This document shows positions 28,704-45,692 of a stretch of DNA of 64,000 nt, in pieces; the stretch's first letter is position 1; every line of letters begins with the position of its first letter. The translations under genes and the position numbers were made by a program. The stretch lies in contig NZ_CP048437.1 in NCBI RefSeq assembly GCF_010509575.1, positions 558,001 through 622,000 of the forward strand. Reading direction: 5' to 3'. Source of the DNA: Faecalibacterium duncaniae (GTDB lineage Bacteria > Bacillota > Clostridia > Oscillospirales > Ruminococcaceae). Under the pieces are notes generated by a model, which was not told the origin of the DNA, ran no database searches, and was given only the letters and a program-made list of their open reading frames with translations.

Positions 28704-28729
28704 ATCTCTCGGAAAACAACTGAATACCG

Positions 28730-28866
28730 ACTTATCAAGAGCGGCTGAGGGGACAGGCCCTGTGAAGCCCGACAACCTGTGCGAAAGCATAAGGTGCCAA
28801 ATCCTGCGGGAAACCGAAAGATAAGAGTGCAAACGCTCAGAGCTTCGGTTCTGAGCGTTTTTGTTT
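28730..28866 (+). promoter_or_regulatory. SAM-I riboswitch (S-box) with terminator
   Basis: The aptamer starts ACTTATCAAGAG and closes with GATAAGAG (P1). In between are AGCGGCTGAGGGGACAGGCC, TGAAGCCCGACAACC and GGTGCCAAATCCTGC, the conserved S-box cores. It is followed by AAACGCTCAGA / TCTGAGCGTTT and TTTGTTT (28830-28866), the expression-platform terminator. High SAM should stop transcription before metK. Confidence 0.95.
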
Positions 28867-35445: not shown

Positions 35446-36117
35446 TCAGCGCTGCTGTTTCTGGATGACCTCGTGGATGCTGGGGGGCACATCCCCCTGT
35501 GCGTCCTTTTCCAGCCTGCTGATGCGGCGGTCCAGCTCGGTGAGGCGCTGGGCCATGACATCCGGCAGATCTTGCTGGTCCAGGTCATCGGCGGGGTTGA
35601 CGGCCTTGTTGTTGATGCGCACCACCTCGGCGGGCACGCCCACGGCGGTGCAGTTGGCGGGCAGGTTGCGCAGCACAACGCTGCCTGCGCCGATGCGGGC
35701 GTTATCGCCGATATACACCGGGCCCAGCACCTTGGTGCCCGCGCCGATCAGCACATTGTTGCCCAGGGTGGGGTGGCGCTTGCCGGTGTCCTTGCCGGTT
35801 CCGCCCAGCGTCACGCCGTGGTAGATGGTGCAGTTGTCGCCGATCACGGTGGTCTCGCCGAACACGATGCCCATGCCGTGGTCGATGAACAGGCACCTGC
35901 CGATCTGGGCACCGGGGTGAATCTCGATGCCGGTCTTGTGGCGGCCATGCTGGCTGACCCAGCGGGCAAGGAAAAAGTGCCCGTGCTCATACAGCCAGTG
36001 GGCAATGCGGTGGTAGACCAGGATATGGAAGCCGGGGTACAGCAGGATGACCTCCAGCACACTGCGTGCGGCGGGGTCTTTGCGCTGGATGTTCCGTGCG
36101 TCCTCCAATAAGCTCAT
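35446..36117 (-). CDS. cysE: Serine O-acetyltransferase
   Basis: Makes O-acetylserine from serine and acetyl-CoA, the direct substrate of CysK at 63.3 kb. 223 aa, the shorter EpsC/CysE type. The left-handed beta-helix hexapeptide repeats run from about residue 65 to 160 ([20 protein letters not shown], then [20 protein letters not shown]). The catalytic His lies in FIDHG. The C-terminal 40 residues are charged and helical. Monocistronic, on the minus strand. The leader carries a small AGCCGC/GCGGCT hairpin before the ribosome site. Confidence 0.95.
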
Positions 36118-36346
36118 GTGGGAAACCCTCCCTTTTTGTTCAGCCGCCTCGGTGCGGCTCTCTCTTTTTGACAGATACTATAATAACACATGCAAACTTC
36201 AATGTACAGTACTTTGGTAGGAATTGACGGAGAAAAATCCCCCTCCGCGCAGGGATTATGGGGCGGGAAACGGGTTTTCGGTAGAGTAGCCAAAATTCCG
36301 GGAGATACAGCCAAAACCTTTTCACACAGGAATCTTACAGAAAGCA
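36118..36346. other. Divergent gap between cysE and the pyr leader
   Basis: It holds the cysE promoter (36175-36202, minus) and about 140 bases to the pyr promoter in which I see no gene, repeat or operator. Confidence 0.6.
36175..36202 (-). promoter_or_regulatory. Probable promoter of cysE
   Basis: Minus strand TTGAAG (36197-36202) and TAGTAT (36175-36180), 16-base spacer. The -10 is imperfect. Confidence 0.5.
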
Positions 36347-36376
36347 TTGACACATTTTGCGTTTCTATGATAAAAT
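36347..36376 (+). promoter_or_regulatory. Promoter of the pyr leader and pyrC
   Basis: TTGACA (36347-36352) and TAAAAT (36371-36376), 18-base spacer. Transcription should start near 36383. Confidence 0.82.
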
Positions 36377-36416
36377 ATAACGAAAACAAATGCGAAGGAA
36401 AAGGAGAAGCGGACGA

Positions 36417-36503
36417 ATGCTGTCAAAAATGAATGCTGAACTGAAAAAGCAGTTTGCAGCCGTTTTTGCGGTGGGCTCCGTGTTTCCTTTTTTCGCTTTT
36501 TGA
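36417..36503 (+). CDS. 28-aa pyr leader peptide
   Basis: The ATG is 10 bases after AGGAG. The peptide starts MLSKMNAELKKQ and ends in VFPFFAF, encoded by a U-rich stretch (TTTCCTTTTTTCGCTTTTTGA). The TGA stop (36501-36503) overlaps the first bases of the attenuator stem, so a ribosome finishing the leader would keep the terminator from forming. This matches the layout of the enterobacterial pyrBI leader, where low UTP slows polymerase in U tracts and lets the ribosome catch up. No PyrR-binding loop is seen. An internal ATG at 36429 is a possible alternative start. Confidence 0.72.
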   Translation: MLSKMNAELKKQFAAVFAVGSVFPFFAF

Positions 36504-36535
36504 ACTTTTCCGTTTGTGGAAAAGTTCTTTTTTTT
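36502..36535 (+). terminator. Attenuator before pyrC
   Basis: GAACTTTTCC pairs perfectly with GGAAAAGTTC over a 6-base loop, followed by eight T. It lies between the leader peptide and pyrC. Confidence 0.92.
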
Positions 36536-36600
36536 GCCTGTCCGCGGGCTGCAATGCCTGCATCCGCCCATCCGAAATACGAACAGGGAGGTAAAAGAAT

Positions 36601-37791
36601 ATGCTGCTCATCAACGCTGTAAACGCTGCGGGCCGCCCGGTGGAGCTTTTCGTGAAAGACGGAAAGATCGCCGCCGTGGGTCAGGATCTTTCCGCACTGG
36701 CCGGGGAGGGGGAGACTGTCCTCGATGCAGGCGGTCTGACCGTGCTGCCCGCCTTTGTGGACCTGCACTGCCACTGGCGCACCCCGGGCTTTGAATATAA
36801 GGAGGACATTGCCACCGGAAGCATGGCTGCGGCCGCAGGCGGCTACACCTTTGTCAACCTGATGCCCAACACAAAGCCGGTCTGCTCCTCTGCCGCACAG
36901 GCAGCTATGGTGGAACAGAAGGCCGCCGAGGTGGGCCTGTGCGATGTGAACCAGACTGTTTCCATCACCGAGAACTTTGACGGCAAGACCATCGACCACC
37001 TCAAGACCTTACCCGCCAGCGTGAAGTTCATCACCGAGGATGGCCACGGTGTGCAGGACAACGCCACCATGGCCCGGGCCTTTGCCATCTGCACCCAGCG
37101 GGACATCACCGTGATGAGCCACGCCGAGGATATGGAGATCAGCCCCTGGGACTACCGGCTGGCCGAAGACCTGGAGACCGTGCGCAACTGCTGGCTGAGC
37201 GAGTACTACCAGACCAGGCTGCACATGTGCCACGTTTCCACCCGTGGCGCGCTGGAGGCCATCCAGATGGCAAAGCTGCGCGGCGCACCCGTGACCTGCG
37301 AGGTGACCCCGCATCACCTGTGGTTCAACAATGAGACCTGCGATTACCGGGTCAACCCGCCCATCCGCACCGCGGATGATGTGCAGGCACTCATCGACGG
37401 TATCCGTTCCGGTGTGGTGGATGCCATTGCCACCGACCACGCTCCCCACTCCGAGGAAGACAAGCTGAAGGGCATGGCCGGTATGGTGGGCAGCGAGACC
37501 GCCTTTGGGGTCTGCTACACCAAGCTCTGCAGGGAAGAGGGCCTGCCGCTGGAACTGCTGGTGCACCTGATGAGCACCCGCCCGGCAGAGATCCTGGGCC
37601 TTGCCAAGGGCCAGCTGGAGCCCGGCTACGATGCAGACTTCGTGCTGGTGGATCTCGACACCCCCTACACCGTGGACAAAGAAAAGCTGCACTCCAAGAG
37701 CCATAACTGCCCCTTTGACGGTGCACAGCTCTACGGCAGGGTCTATGCCACCATCAAGGGCGGCAAGCTGACCTATCAGGCTGAGGAGTAA
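36601..37791 (+). CDS. pyrC: Dihydroorotase
   Basis: Closes carbamoyl aspartate to dihydroorotate, third step of UMP synthesis. 396 aa; zinc amidohydrolase. Metal site residues lie in DLHCHWRTPG (HxH, near residue 57), in two single-His positions further on (MSHAED near 176, CHVSTRG near 210) and in ATDHAPHSEEDK (near 278). GGGAGG precedes the ATG by 8 bases. It is the first structural gene behind the attenuator. The preceding enzyme gene, pyrB, is not in the window. Confidence 0.95.
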   Translation: MLLINAVNAAGRPVELFVKDGKIAAVGQDLSALAGEGETVLDAGGLTVLPAFVDLHCHWRTPGFEYKEDIATGSMAAAAGGYTFVNLMPNTKPVCSSAAQAAMVEQKAAEVGLCDVNQTVSITENFDGKTIDHLKTLPASVKFITEDGHGVQDNATMARAFAICTQRDITVMSHAEDMEISPWDYRLAEDLETVRNCWLSEYYQTRLHMCHVSTRGALEAIQMAKLRGAPVTCEVTPHHLWFNNETCDYRVNPPIRTADDVQALIDGIRSGVVDAIATDHAPHSEEDKLKGMAGMVGSETAFGVCYTKLCREEGLPLELLVHLMSTRPAEILGLAKGQLEPGYDADFVLVDLDTPYTVDKEKLHSKSHNCPFDGAQLYGRVYATIKGGKLTYQAEE

Positions 37792-38018: not shown

Positions 38019-38885
38019 ATGACAAACATGGACAAGCTTTACGAAGCAGTTGCAGCCCGCGGCCCGGTGTGTGTGGGCCTGGACACTGATTTCAGCTACC
38101 TGCCCGCTGACTTTGTGGACACCACCCTGACCAAGGGGGAAAACATCGTTCGCTTCAACAAGAAGCTCATCGATGCCACCAAGGCTGTGGCTGGCTGCTA
38201 CAAGGTGCAGATCGCATACTACGAGTCCCTGGGTCTGGAGGGCATGAAGGCCTACGCCGAGACCCTGGCCGCTGTCCGCGAGGCCGGTATCCCTGTCATC
38301 GCCGATATCAAGCGCGGCGATATCGCCAAGACCGCCGAGATGTACGCCATGGGCCACTTCACCGGCGACTTCGAGGCTGATTTCGTCACCCTGGCCCCCT
38401 ACATGGGTCTGGATTCCATCAGCCCCTACCTGCCCTATGCCGAAAAGCAGGGCAAGGGCATGTTCGTCCTCTGCCGCACCTCCAACGGCGGTGCCAAGGA
38501 CTTTGAGTATGAGAAGCTGGCAGACGGCCGCCACGTCTACGATCTGGTGGGCGACAAGCTGAACGCTCTGGGCAAGGACTACATGGGCGAGCACGGCTAC
38601 TCCTCCATCGGTCTGGTCATCGGCGGCACCCACATCGAGGAGGCCACCGAGATCCGCGCCAAGTATCAGGACAGCTTCTTCCTCATCCCTGGCTACGGCG
38701 CACAGGGCGGAAAGGCGGAGGATATTGCCCAGTACCTGACCAAGGGCAACGGCGGCGTGGTCAACTCCAGCCGCGGCATCCTGCTGGCCTACAAGAAGCA
38801 GCCCGGCGTGGCCTTTGATGAGGCCGCTTACAACGAGTGTGTGAACATGAAGGAGGCCATTGCTCATGCGTGCAGCCTGCTGTGA
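38019..38885 (+). CDS. pyrF: Orotidine 5'-phosphate decarboxylase (family 2)
   Basis: Decarboxylates OMP to UMP, the last step. 288 aa, longer than the common 230-aa form and typical of the second subfamily. CVGLDTDFSYLP at the N-terminus and the catalytic ADIKRGDIAKT (DxKxxD, near residue 92) are present. CAGGAGGA precedes the ATG. The pyrK gene begins within its last 20 bases. Confidence 0.95.
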   Translation: MTNMDKLYEAVAARGPVCVGLDTDFSYLPADFVDTTLTKGENIVRFNKKLIDATKAVAGCYKVQIAYYESLGLEGMKAYAETLAAVREAGIPVIADIKRGDIAKTAEMYAMGHFTGDFEADFVTLAPYMGLDSISPYLPYAEKQGKGMFVLCRTSNGGAKDFEYEKLADGRHVYDLVGDKLNALGKDYMGEHGYSSIGLVIGGTHIEEATEIRAKYQDSFFLIPGYGAQGGKAEDIAQYLTKGNGGVVNSSRGILLAYKKQPGVAFDEAAYNECVNMKEAIAHACSLL

Positions 38886-39639
38886 AGCTACCGTTCTGAG
38901 CCATGAGAGCATCCTGCCGGACATCCGGCTCCTGCGTGCCCTCTGGCCTGACCGGGAACATGCCCCCCACGCCGGGCAGTTCTTTACCCTGCGTGCCTGG
39001 GGTGCCGATGAGGCTCCCTTCCTGTCCCGCCCCATCAGCGTGCACAAGTGGGAGCCGGAGACCCAGACCATTGAGTTCCTGTATCAGGTCATCGGCGAGG
39101 GCACTCACAAAATTGCCCAGCTGAAGACCGGCGATACCTTCCAGCTGACCGGCCCCATGGGCAACGGCTTTGATATCCCGGCCCTGGCCGAACAATACCA
39201 TAAGATCGCCGTGGTGGGCGGCGGCATTGGCACCGCCCCCATGTATCAGGTCACCCGGGAACTGGCAGCTGCCGGTGTTAAGCCGGACGTGTTCTTCGGC
39301 TTCCGGGATACCCCCTACTGCATGGAAGAGTACCGCTCCATCGCAAATGTGGTAAAGGTCTCCACCGATACCGGCGCGGTGGGCTTCCACGGCTTTGTGA
39401 CCCAGCTGTATGACCCGGCAGATTACGATGCAGTGCTGATCTGCGGCCCCACCGTGATGATGAAAAACGCCGCCCGGATCTGTGCCGAAAAGGGCACCCC
39501 CTGCTTCGTGAGCCTGGAAAAGAAGATGGCCTGCGGCATTGGTGCCTGCCTTGGCTGCACCTGCGAGACCAAGGGCGGCGAGGGCAAGAGCGTGTGCAAG
39601 AATGGCCCGGTCTTTGATGCAACGGAGGTGTTCTTCTGA
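38866..39639 (+). CDS. pyrK: Dihydroorotate dehydrogenase, electron-transfer subunit
   Basis: Passes electrons from PyrD to NAD+ through FAD and a [2Fe-2S] cluster. 257 aa. FAD-binding RPISV (near residue 55) and the NAD loop GGGIGTAPM (near 120) are visible. The cluster Cys are in ACGIGACLGCTC and SVCKNGP near the end. The ATG at 38866 has AAGGAGG 9 bases upstream; a TTG two codons earlier is less likely. It overlaps pyrF by 20 bases and pyrD by one, so production is tightly coupled. Confidence 0.94.
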   Translation: MRAACCEATVLSHESILPDIRLLRALWPDREHAPHAGQFFTLRAWGADEAPFLSRPISVHKWEPETQTIEFLYQVIGEGTHKIAQLKTGDTFQLTGPMGNGFDIPALAEQYHKIAVVGGGIGTAPMYQVTRELAAAGVKPDVFFGFRDTPYCMEEYRSIANVVKVSTDTGAVGFHGFVTQLYDPADYDAVLICGPTVMMKNAARICAEKGTPCFVSLEKKMACGIGACLGCTCETKGGEGKSVCKNGPVFDATEVFF

Positions 39640-40565
39640 TGGCTGACCTGAAAACAAACCTGCTGGGCTTTGTGATGAACAGCCCGGTCATCGGTGCTTC
39701 CGGCACTGTGGGCTACGGCGTGGAGTACGAGGAACTGGCCGATTTTTCCAAGATCGGCGGCATCTCCGGCAAGGGCCTGACCCTGCACGGCCAGTACGGC
39801 AACAAGGGCGAGCGCCTGTGGGAGACCCCCTCCGGCCTCATCAACAGCATCGGCCTGCAGAACCCCGGCGTTCAGCATTTCATTGACGTGGAACTGAACG
39901 AGATGCTGGAGCTCAAGCAGAAATACGGCACAGTGGCCATTGCCAACTTGGGCGGACACAGTGAGGAAGAGTATGTTGAGGGCGCGGCTCTGCTGAGCGA
40001 GAGCGCTGTGGACATCGTGGAGCTGAACATCTCCTGCCCCAACGTCAAGGTGGGCGGCATGGCCTACGGCGTGAAGGCCGAGGCTGCCGGTGAGGTGGTG
40101 CGGATGGTCCGCGCGGCCTGCAAAAAGCCCCTGATGGTCAAGCTGAGCCCCCAGGCAGAGAACATCCCTGAGATGTGCAAGGCTGTGGAGGCCGCCGGTG
40201 CGGATGCCATCAGCCTGACCAACACCTTCCAGGCCTGCGCCATCGATCTGGAAAAGCGCAAGCCGGTGTTCAACAACATCTTTGCCGGTCTGTCCGGCCC
40301 GGCGGTGCGGCCCATTGCCCTGCGCATGGTCTGGCAGGCTGTGGGTGCCGTGAACATTCCGGTGGTGGGTCTGGGCGGCATTGCCACCGGCCGCGACGCA
40401 CTGGAATTCATCATGGCAGGTGCCACGGCGGTACAGGTGGGCGCGGCAAACTTTGCCAACCCCCGCGCCATGGAGACCATTGCCGACGAGATGGCACAGT
40501 GGATGGATGCCCACGGCGTGAAAACGCTGGAGGAGATCCGCGGCTGCGCCCGAAATGCTGAATAA
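39639..40565 (+). CDS. pyrD: Dihydroorotate dehydrogenase, catalytic subunit (class 1B)
   Basis: FMN enzyme that oxidises dihydroorotate to orotate. 308 aa. Class 1 is shown by the catalytic Cys in ELNISCPNVK (near residue 133), and the adjacent pyrK makes it class 1B (NAD-linked). GLGGIATGRDALEFIMAGAT (near 247) holds the FMN phosphate. TGATG overlap with pyrK. Confidence 0.96.
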   Translation: MADLKTNLLGFVMNSPVIGASGTVGYGVEYEELADFSKIGGISGKGLTLHGQYGNKGERLWETPSGLINSIGLQNPGVQHFIDVELNEMLELKQKYGTVAIANLGGHSEEEYVEGAALLSESAVDIVELNISCPNVKVGGMAYGVKAEAAGEVVRMVRAACKKPLMVKLSPQAENIPEMCKAVEAAGADAISLTNTFQACAIDLEKRKPVFNNIFAGLSGPAVRPIALRMVWQAVGAVNIPVVGLGGIATGRDALEFIMAGATAVQVGAANFANPRAMETIADEMAQWMDAHGVKTLEEIRGCARNAE

Positions 40566-40701: not shown

Positions 40702-41295
40702 ATGAGTGAAGCACTTGAAATTCTGAAGAGCTGTGACGCATTCCTGGAGGGCCATTTCCTGCTCTCCTCCGGCCGCCATTCCAGCGCATACTGCCAGATG
40801 GCCTACCTGCAGCAGTACCCTGACCGCTGCGCCGAGGTAATGAAGGCTGTGGCCGATCAGATCAAGAAGCTGGATGTGGATGTCATCGTGGGACCTGCCA
40901 TGGGCGGCATCGTCTATGCTTACGAGCTGGCCCGCCAGACCGGCAAGCGCGCCATCTTCACCGAGCGCGTGGACAATGTGATGACCCTGAAGCGCTTTGC
41001 CATCCATCCGGGTGAAAAGTGCATCATTGCTGAGGACGTTGTCACCACCGGCATCTCCTCCCTGGAGACCAAGCGCGTGATCGAAGAGGCCGGCGGCATC
41101 TGCCTGGGCATCACCTGCGTGGTGGACCGCACCAAGCCCGAGGCTCCGTCTCCCATTCCCATCCTGGCCAGCGCCCTGAAGCTGGACCTGCCTAACTACG
41201 CACCCGAGGAGTGCCCCATCTGCAAGGAGGGCAAGCTGCCTCTGGTGCACCTGGGTAGCCGCAAGATGAAGCAGGAAGCCAAGCAGACCCTGTAA
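40702..41295 (+). CDS. pyrE: Orotate phosphoribosyltransferase
   Basis: Joins orotate to PRPP to give OMP. 197 aa, normal length. The PRPP-binding motif is IIAEDVVTTGISS (near residue 110). GAGGGAG precedes the ATG at 40702; the longer frame from 40597 would start upstream of the promoter and is rejected. First gene of a second pyr transcription unit. Confidence 0.95.
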   Translation: MSEALEILKSCDAFLEGHFLLSSGRHSSAYCQMAYLQQYPDRCAEVMKAVADQIKKLDVDVIVGPAMGGIVYAYELARQTGKRAIFTERVDNVMTLKRFAIHPGEKCIIAEDVVTTGISSLETKRVIEEAGGICLGITCVVDRTKPEAPSPIPILASALKLDLPNYAPEECPICKEGKLPLVHLGSRKMKQEAKQTL

Positions 41296-41329: not shown

Positions 41330-42439
41330 ATGAACGCTTATCTTCTTTTGGCAAACGGCATGGTCTTTGCAGGCCAGTCAGTGGGTGCTGAGGGCGTTAC
41401 CGTGGGCGAAGTCGTCTTTGCCACCGGTATGGTGGGCTTTGAAGAGACCCTGACCGACCCCAGCTACTACGGCCAGATCATCACCCAGACCTATCCCCTC
41501 ATCGGCAACTACGGCATGAACAAGGACGATATGGAGTCGGACCGCATCTGGGCCAAGGGCTACATTGTGCGCGAGGCCTGCACCACCCCCTCCAACTGGC
41601 GCTGTGAGGAGACGTTGGACAGCTTTTTGAAGAAAAACAATACCATCGGCATCGAGGGCATCGACACCCGCCACCTGACCCGCATCATCCGGGAGAGCGG
41701 TGTGATGAACGGTGCCATCCTGACCACCTTTGACCCCGCTGACCCTGCCAACAAGGCCGAGACGGAGAAGCTGCTGGAGACCATCCGCGCCTATGCCGTG
41801 ACGGATGCTGTCAAGAGCGTGACCTGCGAGAAGCCCGAGGTCTTTCACGAGAAGGGCGAGACCCACATCGTGCTGATGCACTACGGCTGCAAGCGCAATA
41901 TCGTGCGCTGCCTGGTCAAGCGCGGCTGCAAGGTAACGGTGATGCCTGCCTTTGCCACCGCTGAGGAAGTGGCTGCCCTGAATCCGGACGGCATCATGCT
42001 GTCCAACGGCCCCGGCGACCCTGCCGAGCCGGTGGAGGTCATTGAGAACCTGAAGCAGATCTTTGCGCTGGGCATCCCCACCTTCGGCATCTGCCTGGGC
42101 CACCAGCTCAGCGCTCTGGCCGCCGGTGCCAAGACCATGAAGCTGAAGTATGGCCACCGCGGTGCCAACCAGCCTGTCACTGATTTTGAGTCGGGCCGCA
42201 CCTTCATCACCAGCCAGAACCACGGCTATGCGGTCGTGGGCGAGGAGCTGCCCGCCGAGATGGGCGAGGTGGCACAGGTGAACGCCAACGACGGCACCTG
42301 CGAGGGCATCAAGTACAAGAAGTGGAACTGCTTCACGGTCCAGTTCCACCCGGAAGCCAACGGCGGCCCCAAGGATACGGAGTTCCTGTTCGACCGCTTC
42401 CTGAACAACGTCAAAGCAGCAAAAAAGGAGGTGCGCTGA
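41330..42439 (+). CDS. carA: Carbamoyl-phosphate synthase, small (glutaminase) subunit
   Basis: Releases ammonia from glutamine for CarB. 369 aa. The class I amidotransferase domain is C-terminal, with the nucleophile in GICLGHQLSA (near residue 260) and the His/Glu pair in FHPEAN (near 348). The ATG at 41330 is 5 bases after AAGGAG; an earlier in-frame start at 41297 lacks a site. It is one base short of touching carB. Confidence 0.96.
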   Translation: MNAYLLLANGMVFAGQSVGAEGVTVGEVVFATGMVGFEETLTDPSYYGQIITQTYPLIGNYGMNKDDMESDRIWAKGYIVREACTTPSNWRCEETLDSFLKKNNTIGIEGIDTRHLTRIIRESGVMNGAILTTFDPADPANKAETEKLLETIRAYAVTDAVKSVTCEKPEVFHEKGETHIVLMHYGCKRNIVRCLVKRGCKVTVMPAFATAEEVAALNPDGIMLSNGPGDPAEPVEVIENLKQIFALGIPTFGICLGHQLSALAAGAKTMKLKYGHRGANQPVTDFESGRTFITSQNHGYAVVGEELPAEMGEVAQVNANDGTCEGIKYKKWNCFTVQFHPEANGGPKDTEFLFDRFLNNVKAAKKEVR

Positions 42440-42440
42440 A

Positions 42441-45400
42441 ATGCCCAAGGACCCCAGAATCAAAAAGGTGCTGGTCATCGGCTCCGGCCCCATCATCATC
42501 GGCCAGGCCGCTGAGTTCGACTACTCCGGCACCCAGGCGTGCCGCGCCCTGAAAGCAGAGGGCATTGAGACCGTTCTGCTCAACTCCAACCCCGCTACCA
42601 TTATGACCGACCCGGATGTGGCCGATCATGTCTATATCGAGCCCATGACCCTTGAGGTGGTGGAGCGCATCCTGGAGATCGAGAAGCCTGACTCCGTTCT
42701 GCCCAACCTGGGCGGCCAGATGGGCCTGAACCTCTCCATGGAGCTGGCCCGTTCCGGCTATCTGGACCGCACCGGCATCCGCCTGCTGGCCTGCAAGCCT
42801 GAGACCATCGACCGCGCCGAGGATCGTGAGCTGTTCAAGGAGACGATGGAAAAGCTGCATCAGCCCATCATCCCTTCTGAGGTCGTGGAGACCCTGCAGG
42901 ATGCGCTGGCCTGTGCGGACCGCATCGGCTACCCCGTCATCGTCCGCCCTGCATTTACCATGGGCGGTACCGGCGGCGGCATCTGCGAAAACAAGGAAAA
43001 GCTCATCGAGATCGGTACCAACGGCCTGCGTCTTTCCCCCATTCATCAGATCCTGGTGGAAAAGTGCATCGCCGGTTGGAAAGAGATCGAGTACGAGGTC
43101 ATGCGCGACCACAAGGGCAACGTGATCACCGTCTGCAACATGGAGAACCTGGACCCCGTCGGTATCCACACCGGCGATTCCGTGGTCGTGGCTCCCTCCC
43201 AGACCCTGACCGATCACGAGTACCAGATGCTGCGCACCGCCGCGCTGGATATCATCACCGAGCTGGGCATCGAGGGCGGCTGCAACTGCCAGTTTGCCCT
43301 GAAGCCCGACAGCTATGATTACGCGGTCATCGAGGTCAACCCCCGTGTGTCCCGTTCTTCCGCTCTGGCCTCCAAGGCCACCGGCTACCCCATTGCCAAG
43401 GTGGCCACCAAGATCGCCATCGGCTATACGCTGGACGAGATCACCAATGATGTCACCGGCAAGACCTGCGCCTGCTTTGAGCCTGCGCTGGACTACATCG
43501 TGGTCAAGTATCCGAAGTGGCCCTTTGATAAGTTCGTCTACGCCGACAAGTCTCTGGGCACCCAGATGATGGCCACCGGCGAGGTGATGAGCATTGGCAA
43601 CAGCTTCGAGGCAGCTATGATGAAGGCGGTCTCCTCCATCGAGCTGGGTATGGACACCCTGACCCACAAGCCCTTTGAGGAGCTGACCGATGACGAGATC
43701 GTGGCCCACCTGCATGTGCAGGATGCGGAGCGCGTGTTCTGTGTCTACGAGGCCCTCAAGCGCGGCATCGACCACGAGACCATCTGGAAGATCACCAAGA
43801 TCGACTGGTGGTTCCTGGATAAGATGCAGCACTTGGCTGACCTGGAAAAGGGTCTGGCAAAGTGCAACGGCGTGCTGAGCCTGGAGCAGTATCAGACCGC
43901 CAAGAAGTATGGCTTCCAGGATAAGACCATCAAGCGTCTGGCACAGGTGGATGCTCTGCCTGTGGAGAACTACCGCGCCGGTTTCAAGATGGTCGATACC
44001 TGTGCTGCTGAGTTCTCGGCCAACACTCCGTACTTCTACTCCACCTACGACGGCGACAACGAGGCCGCCGAGTTTATTGCTGCCAGAGAGGCAGAGGCTG
44101 CCGCAAACGGCCAGCCCAAGAAGAAAAAGGTGCTGGTCTTTGGTTCCGGCCCCATCCGCATCGGTCAGGGCATCGAGTTCGACTACTGCTCTGTCCACTG
44201 TGTCTGGACCCTGAAGAACCACGGCTGCGAGGCCATCCTCGTCAACAACAACCCCGAGACCGTATCCACCGACTTTGACACCGGCGACCGTCTGTACTTC
44301 GACCCCCTGAACCCGGAGAGTGTGGACAACATCATCGCCACCGAAAAGCCCGATGCCTGCGTGGTCCAGTTCGGCGGCCAGACCGCCATCAAGCTGGCAA
44401 AGCACATGGATGAGATCGGCCTGCCCATTCTGGGCACCCCGGCGGATGCCATTGACGAGGCAGAGGACCGCGAGCGCTTTGACGAACTGCTGGAGCGCTG
44501 CAAGATCCCCCGTGCGCCCGGCCGCACCGTGTTCAATCTGGAGGAGGCTCTGGCTGCCGCCGATGAGATCGGCCTGCCTGTCCTGATGCGTCCCTCCTAC
44601 GTTCTGGGCGGTCAGAACATGATCGTTGCCTACACCAAGGCCGATGTCATCGAGTACATGGGCGTTATCACCGAGCATGTGGACATGGATCATCCTGTCC
44701 TGCTGGATAAGTATATCATGGGTACCGAGTGCGAGGTCGATGCCATCTGCGATGGCGAAAACTTCCTCATCCCCGGCATCATGGAGCAGGTGGAGCGTAC
44801 CGGTGTCCACTCCGGCGACTCGATCTGTGTCTACCCGGCACAGCATCTGACCCAGGCCGAGATCGACACCATGGTGGATTACACCGGCCGCTTTGCCCGC
44901 GAGCTCCACGTCACCGGTCTGGTCAATGTCCAGTACGCTGTTTCCAACGGCAAGGTCTATGTCATCGAGGTCAACCCCCGTTCCTCCCGTACCGTGCCTT
45001 ACATCTCCAAGGTCACCGGCGTGCCCATGGTGGATCTGGCTGTGCGCTGCTGCCTGGGCGAGAAGCTGGCAGATATGGGCTACGGCACCGGCCTGCACCC
45101 CAATGCCCCCTATGTGGCCGTTAAGGTGCCTGTGTTCAGCTTTGAGAAGCTGCATGGTGTGGATACCCAGTTTGGCCCCGAGATGAAGTCTACCGGCGAG
45201 GTGCTGGGCATTGCCCCCAACTATCACGATGCCCTGCTCAAGGGCCTGATCGGCGCGGGCTATACCTTTAAGACTCCCGGTCCCGCCTCCTGCTGTATCT
45301 TTACGGTGAAGGACAGCGACAAGCCCGAGTTTGTGGATATCGCCTGGAAGCTCAAGAGCATGGGCTACAAGCTGTACGGCACCTCCGGCACCTGTGCATG

Positions 45401-45692
45401 GCTCAACAAGCACATGGTCCCCTGCAACGAGGTGCGCAACATGTCCGGCGAGTCCCCCAACATCGTGGACCTGCTCCAGAGCGGTCTGGTGGACTATGTG
45501 TTCTCCACCAGTGCCAAGGGCCGTGACCCCAAGCGCGATTCTGTCCGGCTGCGCCGCAAGGCCGTGGAGCTGAGCATCCCCTGCATCACTGCTGTGGATA
45601 CCGCCAACGCACTGGTCGATTGCCTGCGCAGCGACCATGACCTGAAGAATATCCCGCTGGTGGATATTGCAACGCTGTATCATAAAAAATAA
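42441..45692 (+). CDS. carB: Carbamoyl-phosphate synthase, large subunit
   Basis: Makes carbamoyl phosphate from ammonia, bicarbonate and two ATP, feeding both pyrimidine and arginine (argF) synthesis. 1083 aa, with the usual two ATP-grasp halves: the first from GSGPIIIGQAAEFDYSG (near residue 16), the second from FGSGPIRIGQGIEFDYCS (near 565). The C-terminal MGS-like allosteric domain (from about 935) is present; it binds UMP or ornithine in relatives. GGAGG lies in the end of carA. No obvious terminator follows. Confidence 0.97.
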   Translation: MPKDPRIKKVLVIGSGPIIIGQAAEFDYSGTQACRALKAEGIETVLLNSNPATIMTDPDVADHVYIEPMTLEVVERILEIEKPDSVLPNLGGQMGLNLSMELARSGYLDRTGIRLLACKPETIDRAEDRELFKETMEKLHQPIIPSEVVETLQDALACADRIGYPVIVRPAFTMGGTGGGICENKEKLIEIGTNGLRLSPIHQILVEKCIAGWKEIEYEVMRDHKGNVITVCNMENLDPVGIHTGDSVVVAPSQTLTDHEYQMLRTAALDIITELGIEGGCNCQFALKPDSYDYAVIEVNPRVSRSSALASKATGYPIAKVATKIAIGYTLDEITNDVTGKTCACFEPALDYIVVKYPKWPFDKFVYADKSLGTQMMATGEVMSIGNSFEAAMMKAVSSIELGMDTLTHKPFEELTDDEIVAHLHVQDAERVFCVYEALKRGIDHETIWKITKIDWWFLDKMQHLADLEKGLAKCNGVLSLEQYQTAKKYGFQDKTIKRLAQVDALPVENYRAGFKMVDTCAAEFSANTPYFYSTYDGDNEAAEFIAAREAEAAANGQPKKKKVLVFGSGPIRIGQGIEFDYCSVHCVWTLKNHGCEAILVNNNPETVSTDFDTGDRLYFDPLNPESVDNIIATEKPDACVVQFGGQTAIKLAKHMDEIGLPILGTPADAIDEAEDRERFDELLERCKIPRAPGRTVFNLEEALAAADEIGLPVLMRPSYVLGGQNMIVAYTKADVIEYMGVITEHVDMDHPVLLDKYIMGTECEVDAICDGENFLIPGIMEQVERTGVHSGDSICVYPAQHLTQAEIDTMVDYTGRFARELHVTGLVNVQYAVSNGKVYVIEVNPRSSRTVPYISKVTGVPMVDLAVRCCLGEKLADMGYGTGLHPNAPYVAVKVPVFSFEKLHGVDTQFGPEMKSTGEVLGIAPNYHDALLKGLIGAGYTFKTPGPASCCIFTVKDSDKPEFVDIAWKLKSMGYKLYGTSGTCAWLNKHMVPCNEVRNMSGESPNIVDLLQSGLVDYVFSTSAKGRDPKRDSVRLRRKAVELSIPCITAVDTANALVDCLRSDHDLKNIPLVDIATLYHKK

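Follow-up and report, generated by a model that had tools for sequence, protein, structure and literature searches.

The window analysed here, a 64,000-nt stretch of the Faecalibacterium duncaniae genome (one contig, 3.10 Mb), carries on its forward strand an operon for de novo pyrimidine synthesis, pyrC-F-K-D-E-carA-carB, behind a short leader. Family models identify pyrC (dihydroorotase, 36601..37791; TIGR00857, 324 bits against a cut-off of 279), pyrF (orotidine-5'-phosphate decarboxylase, 38019..38885; TIGR02127), pyrK (dihydroorotate dehydrogenase electron-transfer subunit, 38860..39639, start codon unsure; NF000798), pyrD (dihydroorotate dehydrogenase, 39639..40565; NF005574), pyrE (orotate phosphoribosyltransferase, 40702..41295; TIGR01367) and carA (carbamoyl-phosphate synthase small subunit, 41333..42439; NF009475), and an ORF of 1083 aa at 42441..45692 is what we take, from its sequence and place, to be carB, encoding the large subunit. 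A pyrB gene that scores 350 bits, over its family cut-off, is found apart from the operon (G000:C1:1672175-1676074), directly 3' of a gene that by eye resembles those for GntR-type regulators; no terminator was found before it. Elsewhere in the window there is an ordinary SAM riboswitch (RF00162, 69.7 bits) at 28729-28827.

The predicted promoter (36347..36376, forward strand) has 11/12 consensus matches: TTGACA (36347-36352), an 18-nt spacer and an extended -10, TAAAAT (36371-36376), preceded by TG. Hexamers resembling this promoter are also seen, by eye, upstream of relatives' leaders. Reiterative initiation was considered, and the predicted start region, AACGAAAAC, is without a T run. The promoter scan gave no second forward-strand promoter-like site in 36100-36620, and the ORF upstream (presumably a cysE-like gene) is transcribed divergently; expression of the operon therefore seems to require polymerase to pass the terminator described below. 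A palindrome, TTTTCGGTA-gag-TAGCCAAAA, lies at 36274-36297, with its centre about 62 nt upstream of the -35, and by eye a similar motif is found at 19/19 named Faecalibacterium loci (L031-L049) with the divergent cysE-like gene. With up to two mismatches allowed, its pattern occurs at one place in the genome, but the control, the pattern reversed, matches 3 times; the palindrome could be an operator, serving either pyr or the divergent gene.

Within the leader, a ribosome-binding region (36398..36416, with the Shine-Dalgarno sequence (SD) AAAGGAG at 36400-36406) precedes a 28-codon ORF (36417..36503) that encodes MLSKMNAELKKQFAAVFAVGSVFPFFAF and for which we propose the name pyrL-like. A first U tract, UUUUU, occupies 36463..36467; by eye, 19/23 Faecalibacterium leaders have four or more T in a row at this position, the exceptions being L015, L016, L017 and L022. 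A hairpin-like site predicted at 36467-36482, which might stabilise a polymerase pause, precedes TTTCCTTTTTT, and the Anaerofilum leaders contain, by eye, GGGGC..GCCCC. The U-rich tail of the ORF (36477..36500), a candidate slow zone for RNA polymerase at low UTP, leads into a TGA stop codon (36501-36503) whose GA forms the first two bases of an intrinsic terminator, the putative attenuator (36502..36535), with a perfect 10-bp stem (36502-36511/36518-36527), a 6-nt loop and T8 at 36528-36535. The fold of 36381-36600 has a z of -5.2 against 200 shuffles. Between the terminator and pyrC lies the pyrC SD, GGGAGG (36586..36591), which can pair, within 36529-36599, with the terminator T run and the GCCU behind it. 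On re-check, the coordinates that the sequence-only reading had given for this anatomy (promoter, SD, 28-codon ORF, TGA-stem overlap, 10-bp stem, T8, then pyrC) are exact.

As a measure of chance, 864 kb of the genome (the window plus 800 kb) holds 116 terminator-like sites, and at 2 of these a short SD-preceded ORF (16-40 codons) stops at the stem start: the pyr leader and one other, the peptide of which resembles, by eye, a tRNA sequence read as protein.

Conservation of the leader and absence of PyrR

The gene behind the leader, pyrC, is present in 31/31 Faecalibacterium genomes (only as fragments in G026) and is 95% identical to ours in F. longum, 91-92% in F. prausnitzii strains and 86% in F. 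gallinarum. Conservation of the short ORF and of its overlap with the stem had been proposed as a check of the sequence-only reading, and both hold across the genus: in 29 of the 30 loci with upstream sequence the ORF is in frame and stops on the stem base, the stop codon in each beginning one base before the stem start, while in the thirtieth (L004) the frame continues and the stop lies in the terminator loop. The peptides meanwhile drift, for example from MLSKMNAELKKQFAAVFAVGSVFPFFAF to MLCAHALEKLKMCFAAGFFAAGLFPVSES.

For a wider view we sampled the family (197 genomes, 125 genera), in which 30 genomes from 19 genera, three of them Faecalibacterium, have a pyrC at least 50% identical to ours. 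One of the 27 non-genus genomes (G203) was excluded because its contig ends too early. Among the remaining 26, the stop is on the stem base in 18, from 12 genera (some judged by eye), and inside the terminator in three (G076, G078 and G178); in two (G108 and G117) the ORF runs through the terminator, in one (G171) it stops 11 nt before it, and in two (G198 and G145) no recognisable leader ORF was found. The leaders of G042, G108, G117, G159 and G171 were judged by eye. The ORF-less leaders of G198 and G145 precede pyrB and show, by eye, a 5' arm rich in purines opposite a pyrimidine-rich 3' arm and a U tract; they may sense in some other way. The same leader as ours stands before pyrB in Anaerofilum, with pyrC further on, and in Clostridium acidisoli and C. 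akagii the leaders carry AGAGAGACTNNNAAGG instead, which we take to be PyrR-like. Across the leaders compared, ORF length ranges from 16 to 39 codons and the peptide is almost wholly changed, yet frame, register and U-richness are constant. Constraint on the ORF as coding sequence is moderate (dN/dS ~0.46; 69 pairs, 20 leaders) and could stem from RNA structure.

In a pyrC tree of 38 rows, 27 stop-on-stem leaders share one branch (support 100/99) with a single loop leader and a single before-stem leader, and leaders with a through-running ORF, a loop stop or no ORF branch outside it (midpoint root; labels partly by eye). Since the arrangement of E. coli, in which the ORF passes through the terminator, lies outside the stem branch, we suggest, only tentatively given the long branches and midpoint rooting, a backward shift of the stop codon to the stem base.

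The terminator core pattern occurs in 20/197 family genomes, with pyrC or pyrB beside it at all 20 loci (5 of which were collapsed as copies of leaders already read) and with one exact match in our own genome. Outside the family, no match was found among same-order genomes, the 7/394 matches all lying within the family. For quantitative comparison we assembled a set of leaders that have the terminator pattern and an SD, with an ORF of 14-45 codons whose stop lies between -8 and +24 from the terminator core; 111 pattern rows reduced to 55 leaders, the same leader having matched at two or three offsets, and two loop-stop leaders were left out of the structure tests, leaving 53. Because these criteria select for it, the 53/55 frequency of stem-base stops is a biased rate, and the locus counts above (29/30 and 18/26) are less so.

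Attenuation by PyrR, as in Bacillus, is common among the relatives, 86/197 family genomes having PyrR over cut-off. In the genus, however, no PyrR protein was found over cut-off in any of the 31 genomes (best match 29.9 bits against 138), and the PyrR element RF00515 is absent from our own genome, the leader matching it at 22.5 bits against a cut-off of 54. PyrR control was therefore rejected, and we give it practically no chance; the sequence-only reading, which saw no PyrR site and suggested a search for pyrR, was right on this point. Over the family, PyrR is present in 0/30 genomes with our pyrC type and in 86/167 others (Fisher p 5e-9, a value that overstates independence because the genomes are related); by genus, it is present in 0/13 with the exact terminator pattern versus 61/112 others (p 1e-4). 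Loss of PyrR alone does not predict the leader, since most other PyrR-less genomes are also without the leader pattern.

A different RNA-binding protein that binds a nucleotide, or a riboswitch, could also act at this terminator, with the ORF incidental. The core CTTTTCC/GGAAAAG is strongly conserved in sequence, beyond what its shape would need, which speaks for such a device; against this, the leader gives no Rfam match over cut-off, and the region 5' of the terminator varies widely between genera, whereas ORF frame, stop register and SD complementarity are constant. We consider this reading improbable.

Composition of the ORF end and its pairing with the ribosome-binding region

The end of the leader ORF is rich in U: over the 55 leader ORFs the final 33 nt average 0.43 T, compared with 0.204 in 19,324 ordinary coding windows, 0.6% of which reach 0.43, and in 52/55 leaders it exceeds that of the earlier part of the ORF. 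The encoded peptides are correspondingly rich in Phe (our own ends in VFPFFAF, and over the 55 leaders Phe makes up 133/605 residues of the last 11 codons, more than any other residue), raising the option of a leader of the trp/his/phe type in which a ribosome stalls at Phe codons and an antiterminator forms. We regard this as very unlikely. Individual leaders have between 1 and 4 Phe codons in this stretch, none at an invariant position, and a stop inside the terminator would leave no room for an antiterminator between the ORF and the terminator; a ribosome stalled early would, moreover, uncover the terminator, so that starvation would lower expression, the wrong sign. Codon variability and geometry thus led us to reject Phe sensing. 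An antiterminator made from the SD and the terminator 5' arm was likewise rejected, the mean probability of SD-terminator pairing being only 0.03 (GGAAAAG of the SD is also the sequence of the terminator 3' arm).

What the SD region is predicted to pair with, in 43/53 leaders, is the tail of its own ORF. In our leader, 36398-36407 would pair with 36483-36492 and 36409-36413 with 36477-36481, making the ribosome-binding region the 5' half, and the ORF tail (36477-36496) the anti-SD strand, of a stem that could lock the SD. Covariation was assessed by computing, for the 53 leaders (23 sequence clusters), the pairing of the 26 nt before the start codon with the final 36 nt of the ORF. Pairs from the same leader average -19.8 kcal/mol versus -15.5 (sd 0.63) when tails are exchanged (z -6.8), and 0/20,000 permutations were as low. 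None of the controls was significant (upstream with tail, z +0.5; SD with ORF start, -0.7; ORF start with tail, +0.2), the SD with the reversed tail leaning the same way as the true pairs (z -1.4, P 0.09). The two strands differ from leader to leader: GAAAGGGGAAC with GTTCCCCGTTTC in L018, ACGAAAAAAGGAGACGCCGG with CGGTGTTTCCTTTTTTCGT in L008 and L036, and CAGCAGAGGAGGCGTT with AACGCGCCTTTGCTG in L097.

Folding gives a mean SD-tail pairing probability of 0.71 in the leaders, versus 0.32 after codon shuffling and 0.17 in 300 ordinary genes (the value to set beside the 0.03 for the terminator is 0.67), and 92% of the 53 leaders have some SD pairing above 0.7, as do 16% of the 300 ordinary genes. 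In 10/53 leaders the SD-tail value is 0.6 or less: an earlier segment of the ORF hides the SD in L054, L061, L062, L068, L092, L093 and L120, and SD pairing is weak in L055, L060 and L098. RNAalifold, applied to two Faecalibacterium clades, gave GGGGAAC/GUUCCCC for one and, for the other, weak mixed structures without an SD-tail stem. This conserved, covarying pairing (z -6.8, 43/53 leaders) had escaped the sequence-only reading, the pyrBI-like picture of which was to that extent incomplete.

Part of the U-richness may be mere anti-SD sequence. It is not only that, because T remains 0.36 at positions of the ORF end outside the SD-paired ones, again compared with 0.204 in ordinary windows. The composition also bears on the signal, since a ribosome covering the terminator could report translation capacity or a general slowing of RNA polymerase (by ppGpp or CTP, for example) instead of UTP. 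The tail is pyrimidine-rich as a whole (Y 0.66, 55 leaders) and the anti-SD tract of one clade, GUUCCCC, is not U-rich, which would suit such a sensor; on the other side, U exceeds C over the last 12 nt before the stop in the 55 leaders, only pyrimidine genes stand behind the sites read, and our own genome has a single exact match to the terminator pattern. A signal other than UTP therefore seems to us unlikely, less so than the protein or riboswitch reading above.

Proposed mechanism and relation to known systems

The leader shares with that of E. coli pyrBI (PyrL, NF007587) a promoter, a short U-rich ORF, a terminator ending in T8 followed in E. coli by GCCC, and a pyrimidine gene next. It differs in that the E. 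coli ORF passes through the terminator and stops just before pyrB, whereas the Faecalibacterium stop lies at the first stem base, and in that it precedes pyrC-F-K-D-E-carAB, with pyrB elsewhere. The Klebsiella and Photobacterium leaders stop, by eye, in the terminator loop, again unlike ours. The proposal of a pyrBI-style attenuator stands as regards the terminator, the SD-preceded ORF reaching it and the U-rich tract, and is incomplete as regards the stop. NF007587 (cut-off 61 bits) had no match to our peptide or to those of four relatives, with E. coli as control scoring 120 bits and Klebsiella 54; if the leader works like pyrBI, it does so outside the PyrL peptide family.

The anatomy, its conservation, the register of stop and stem, the SD-tail covariation and the absence of PyrR, all read from sequence, point to a mechanism like that of E. 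coli pyrBI, in which a leader peptide attenuates transcription of the operon for de novo pyrimidine synthesis, an assignment that we hold to be quite probable. The switch probably turns the pathway on when UTP runs low; translation of the ORF, pausing, UTP as the signal and the order of events are what we infer. When UTP is plentiful, RNA polymerase would clear the U-rich end of the ORF before a ribosome could follow; the tail just transcribed would pair with the SD region and keep ribosomes from loading, and the terminator would fold, so that pyrC-carB would not be made. With scarce UTP, polymerase would be slowed in the U tracts while the SD is still open, allowing a ribosome to load, catch up and be on the stop codon when polymerase is at the release point, where it would cover the whole terminator 5' arm and permit read-through into pyrC.

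The geometry suits this scheme. With the first base of the stop as nucleotide 1, the core of the 5' arm ends at nucleotide 10-12 in all 53 leaders, and a ribosome with a stop codon in its A site reaches about nucleotide 12-13, so it should cover the arm. In 47/53 leaders, 21-29 nt separate the stop from the T run (in the other 6, by eye, the script took a T run in the loop), which is about the size of one ribosome front plus one polymerase exit channel; the closest trailing ribosome, with polymerase at the release site, would therefore sit on the stop. Geometrically the arrangement agrees with the idea in the sequence-only reading that a ribosome blocks the terminator, and it does not fit a PyrR or trp-type device. 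In E. coli, a stop codon 5 bp before a terminator is described as lowering termination from ~90% to <10%, an effect relieved beyond 27 nt (PMC4824070), and pyrBI is described as sensing UTP via RNA polymerase pausing and a trailing ribosome: in vitro on pyrL, polymerase pauses when UTP is low, and termination falls when a ribosome is coupled to it (PMC10135430). By analogy with pyrL, the U-rich tail would supply the UTP-dependent slow step.

More tentatively, and with somewhat less than even confidence, we suggest that the switch is a race for ribosome loading and not for elongation, in which the anti-SD sequence of the ORF tail is a timed lock that closes translation once it has been made. 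The outcome would then be set by whether a ribosome loads before polymerase leaves the U-rich tail. Such a race would explain the SD-tail covariation over 23 clusters and would make a pyrBI-like UTP sensor workable where polymerase outruns ribosomes; the lock and the withdrawal of the stop codon to the stem base would be this lineage's two innovations, and the lock, an ORF end closing its own start, would be a new part for leader-peptide attenuators.

This matters because Bacillota are classed, at phylum level, as organisms with runaway transcription and lagging ribosomes (PMC13323073), and a conserved, putatively coupling-dependent leader among them is unexpected. By placing the choice at the loading of the ribosome, while polymerase still has only a short lead, the SD lock may offer a way out of the runaway problem. 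Genomic indicators of coupling gave the following picture. Distances from stop codon to terminator in Faecalibacterium (70 sites) are indistinguishable both from those of E. coli (15 sites, p 0.28) and from those of Acetoanaerobium (10 sites, p 0.44). The purine fraction of coding sequence is 0.514 in Faecalibacterium, 0.513 in E. coli and 0.566 in Acetoanaerobium; this bias says nothing on coupling here, because no Rho over cut-off was found in our own genome (best 45 bits against 509) and Rho loss alone is described as relaxing the bias (PMC13323073). The leader is found in PyrR-less members of a branch of gut Bacillota, and if translation-coupled attenuation works there, the runaway view of the phylum needs an exception, for which the leader is a ready assay; as the sequences diverge across genera with the logic constant, there are many natural variants to compare.

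The PyrR attenuator (RF00515; Bacillus and other genera of this family) likewise places attenuation before pyr genes, and the Faecalibacterium leader differs from it in having a coding leader in place of PyrR and a PyrR-binding loop. The leaders of hisS/hisZ, tlrB and vmlR in Firmicutes use competing RNA structures. They too link a short ORF to a terminator in Bacillota (PMC2965389, PMC12288461; for vmlR also PMC9226507), in response to histidine or to ribosome-targeting drugs, whereas the Faecalibacterium ORF itself reaches the terminator stem. Our literature search, which was incomplete for reviews and is no proof of absence, found no published account of this pyr leader. Five gammaproteobacterial pyrB leaders did not yield specific SD-tail pairing; Aeromonas shows the best pairing of the SD with its own tail, and the others do not pair clearly. 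In one family leader with an ORF running through the terminator (G117), the ORF end, NRGVFFLPAARR, resembles by eye that of E. coli PyrL, NRGAFFCPGVRR, a likeness that probably reflects the similar terminators that the two ORFs cross.
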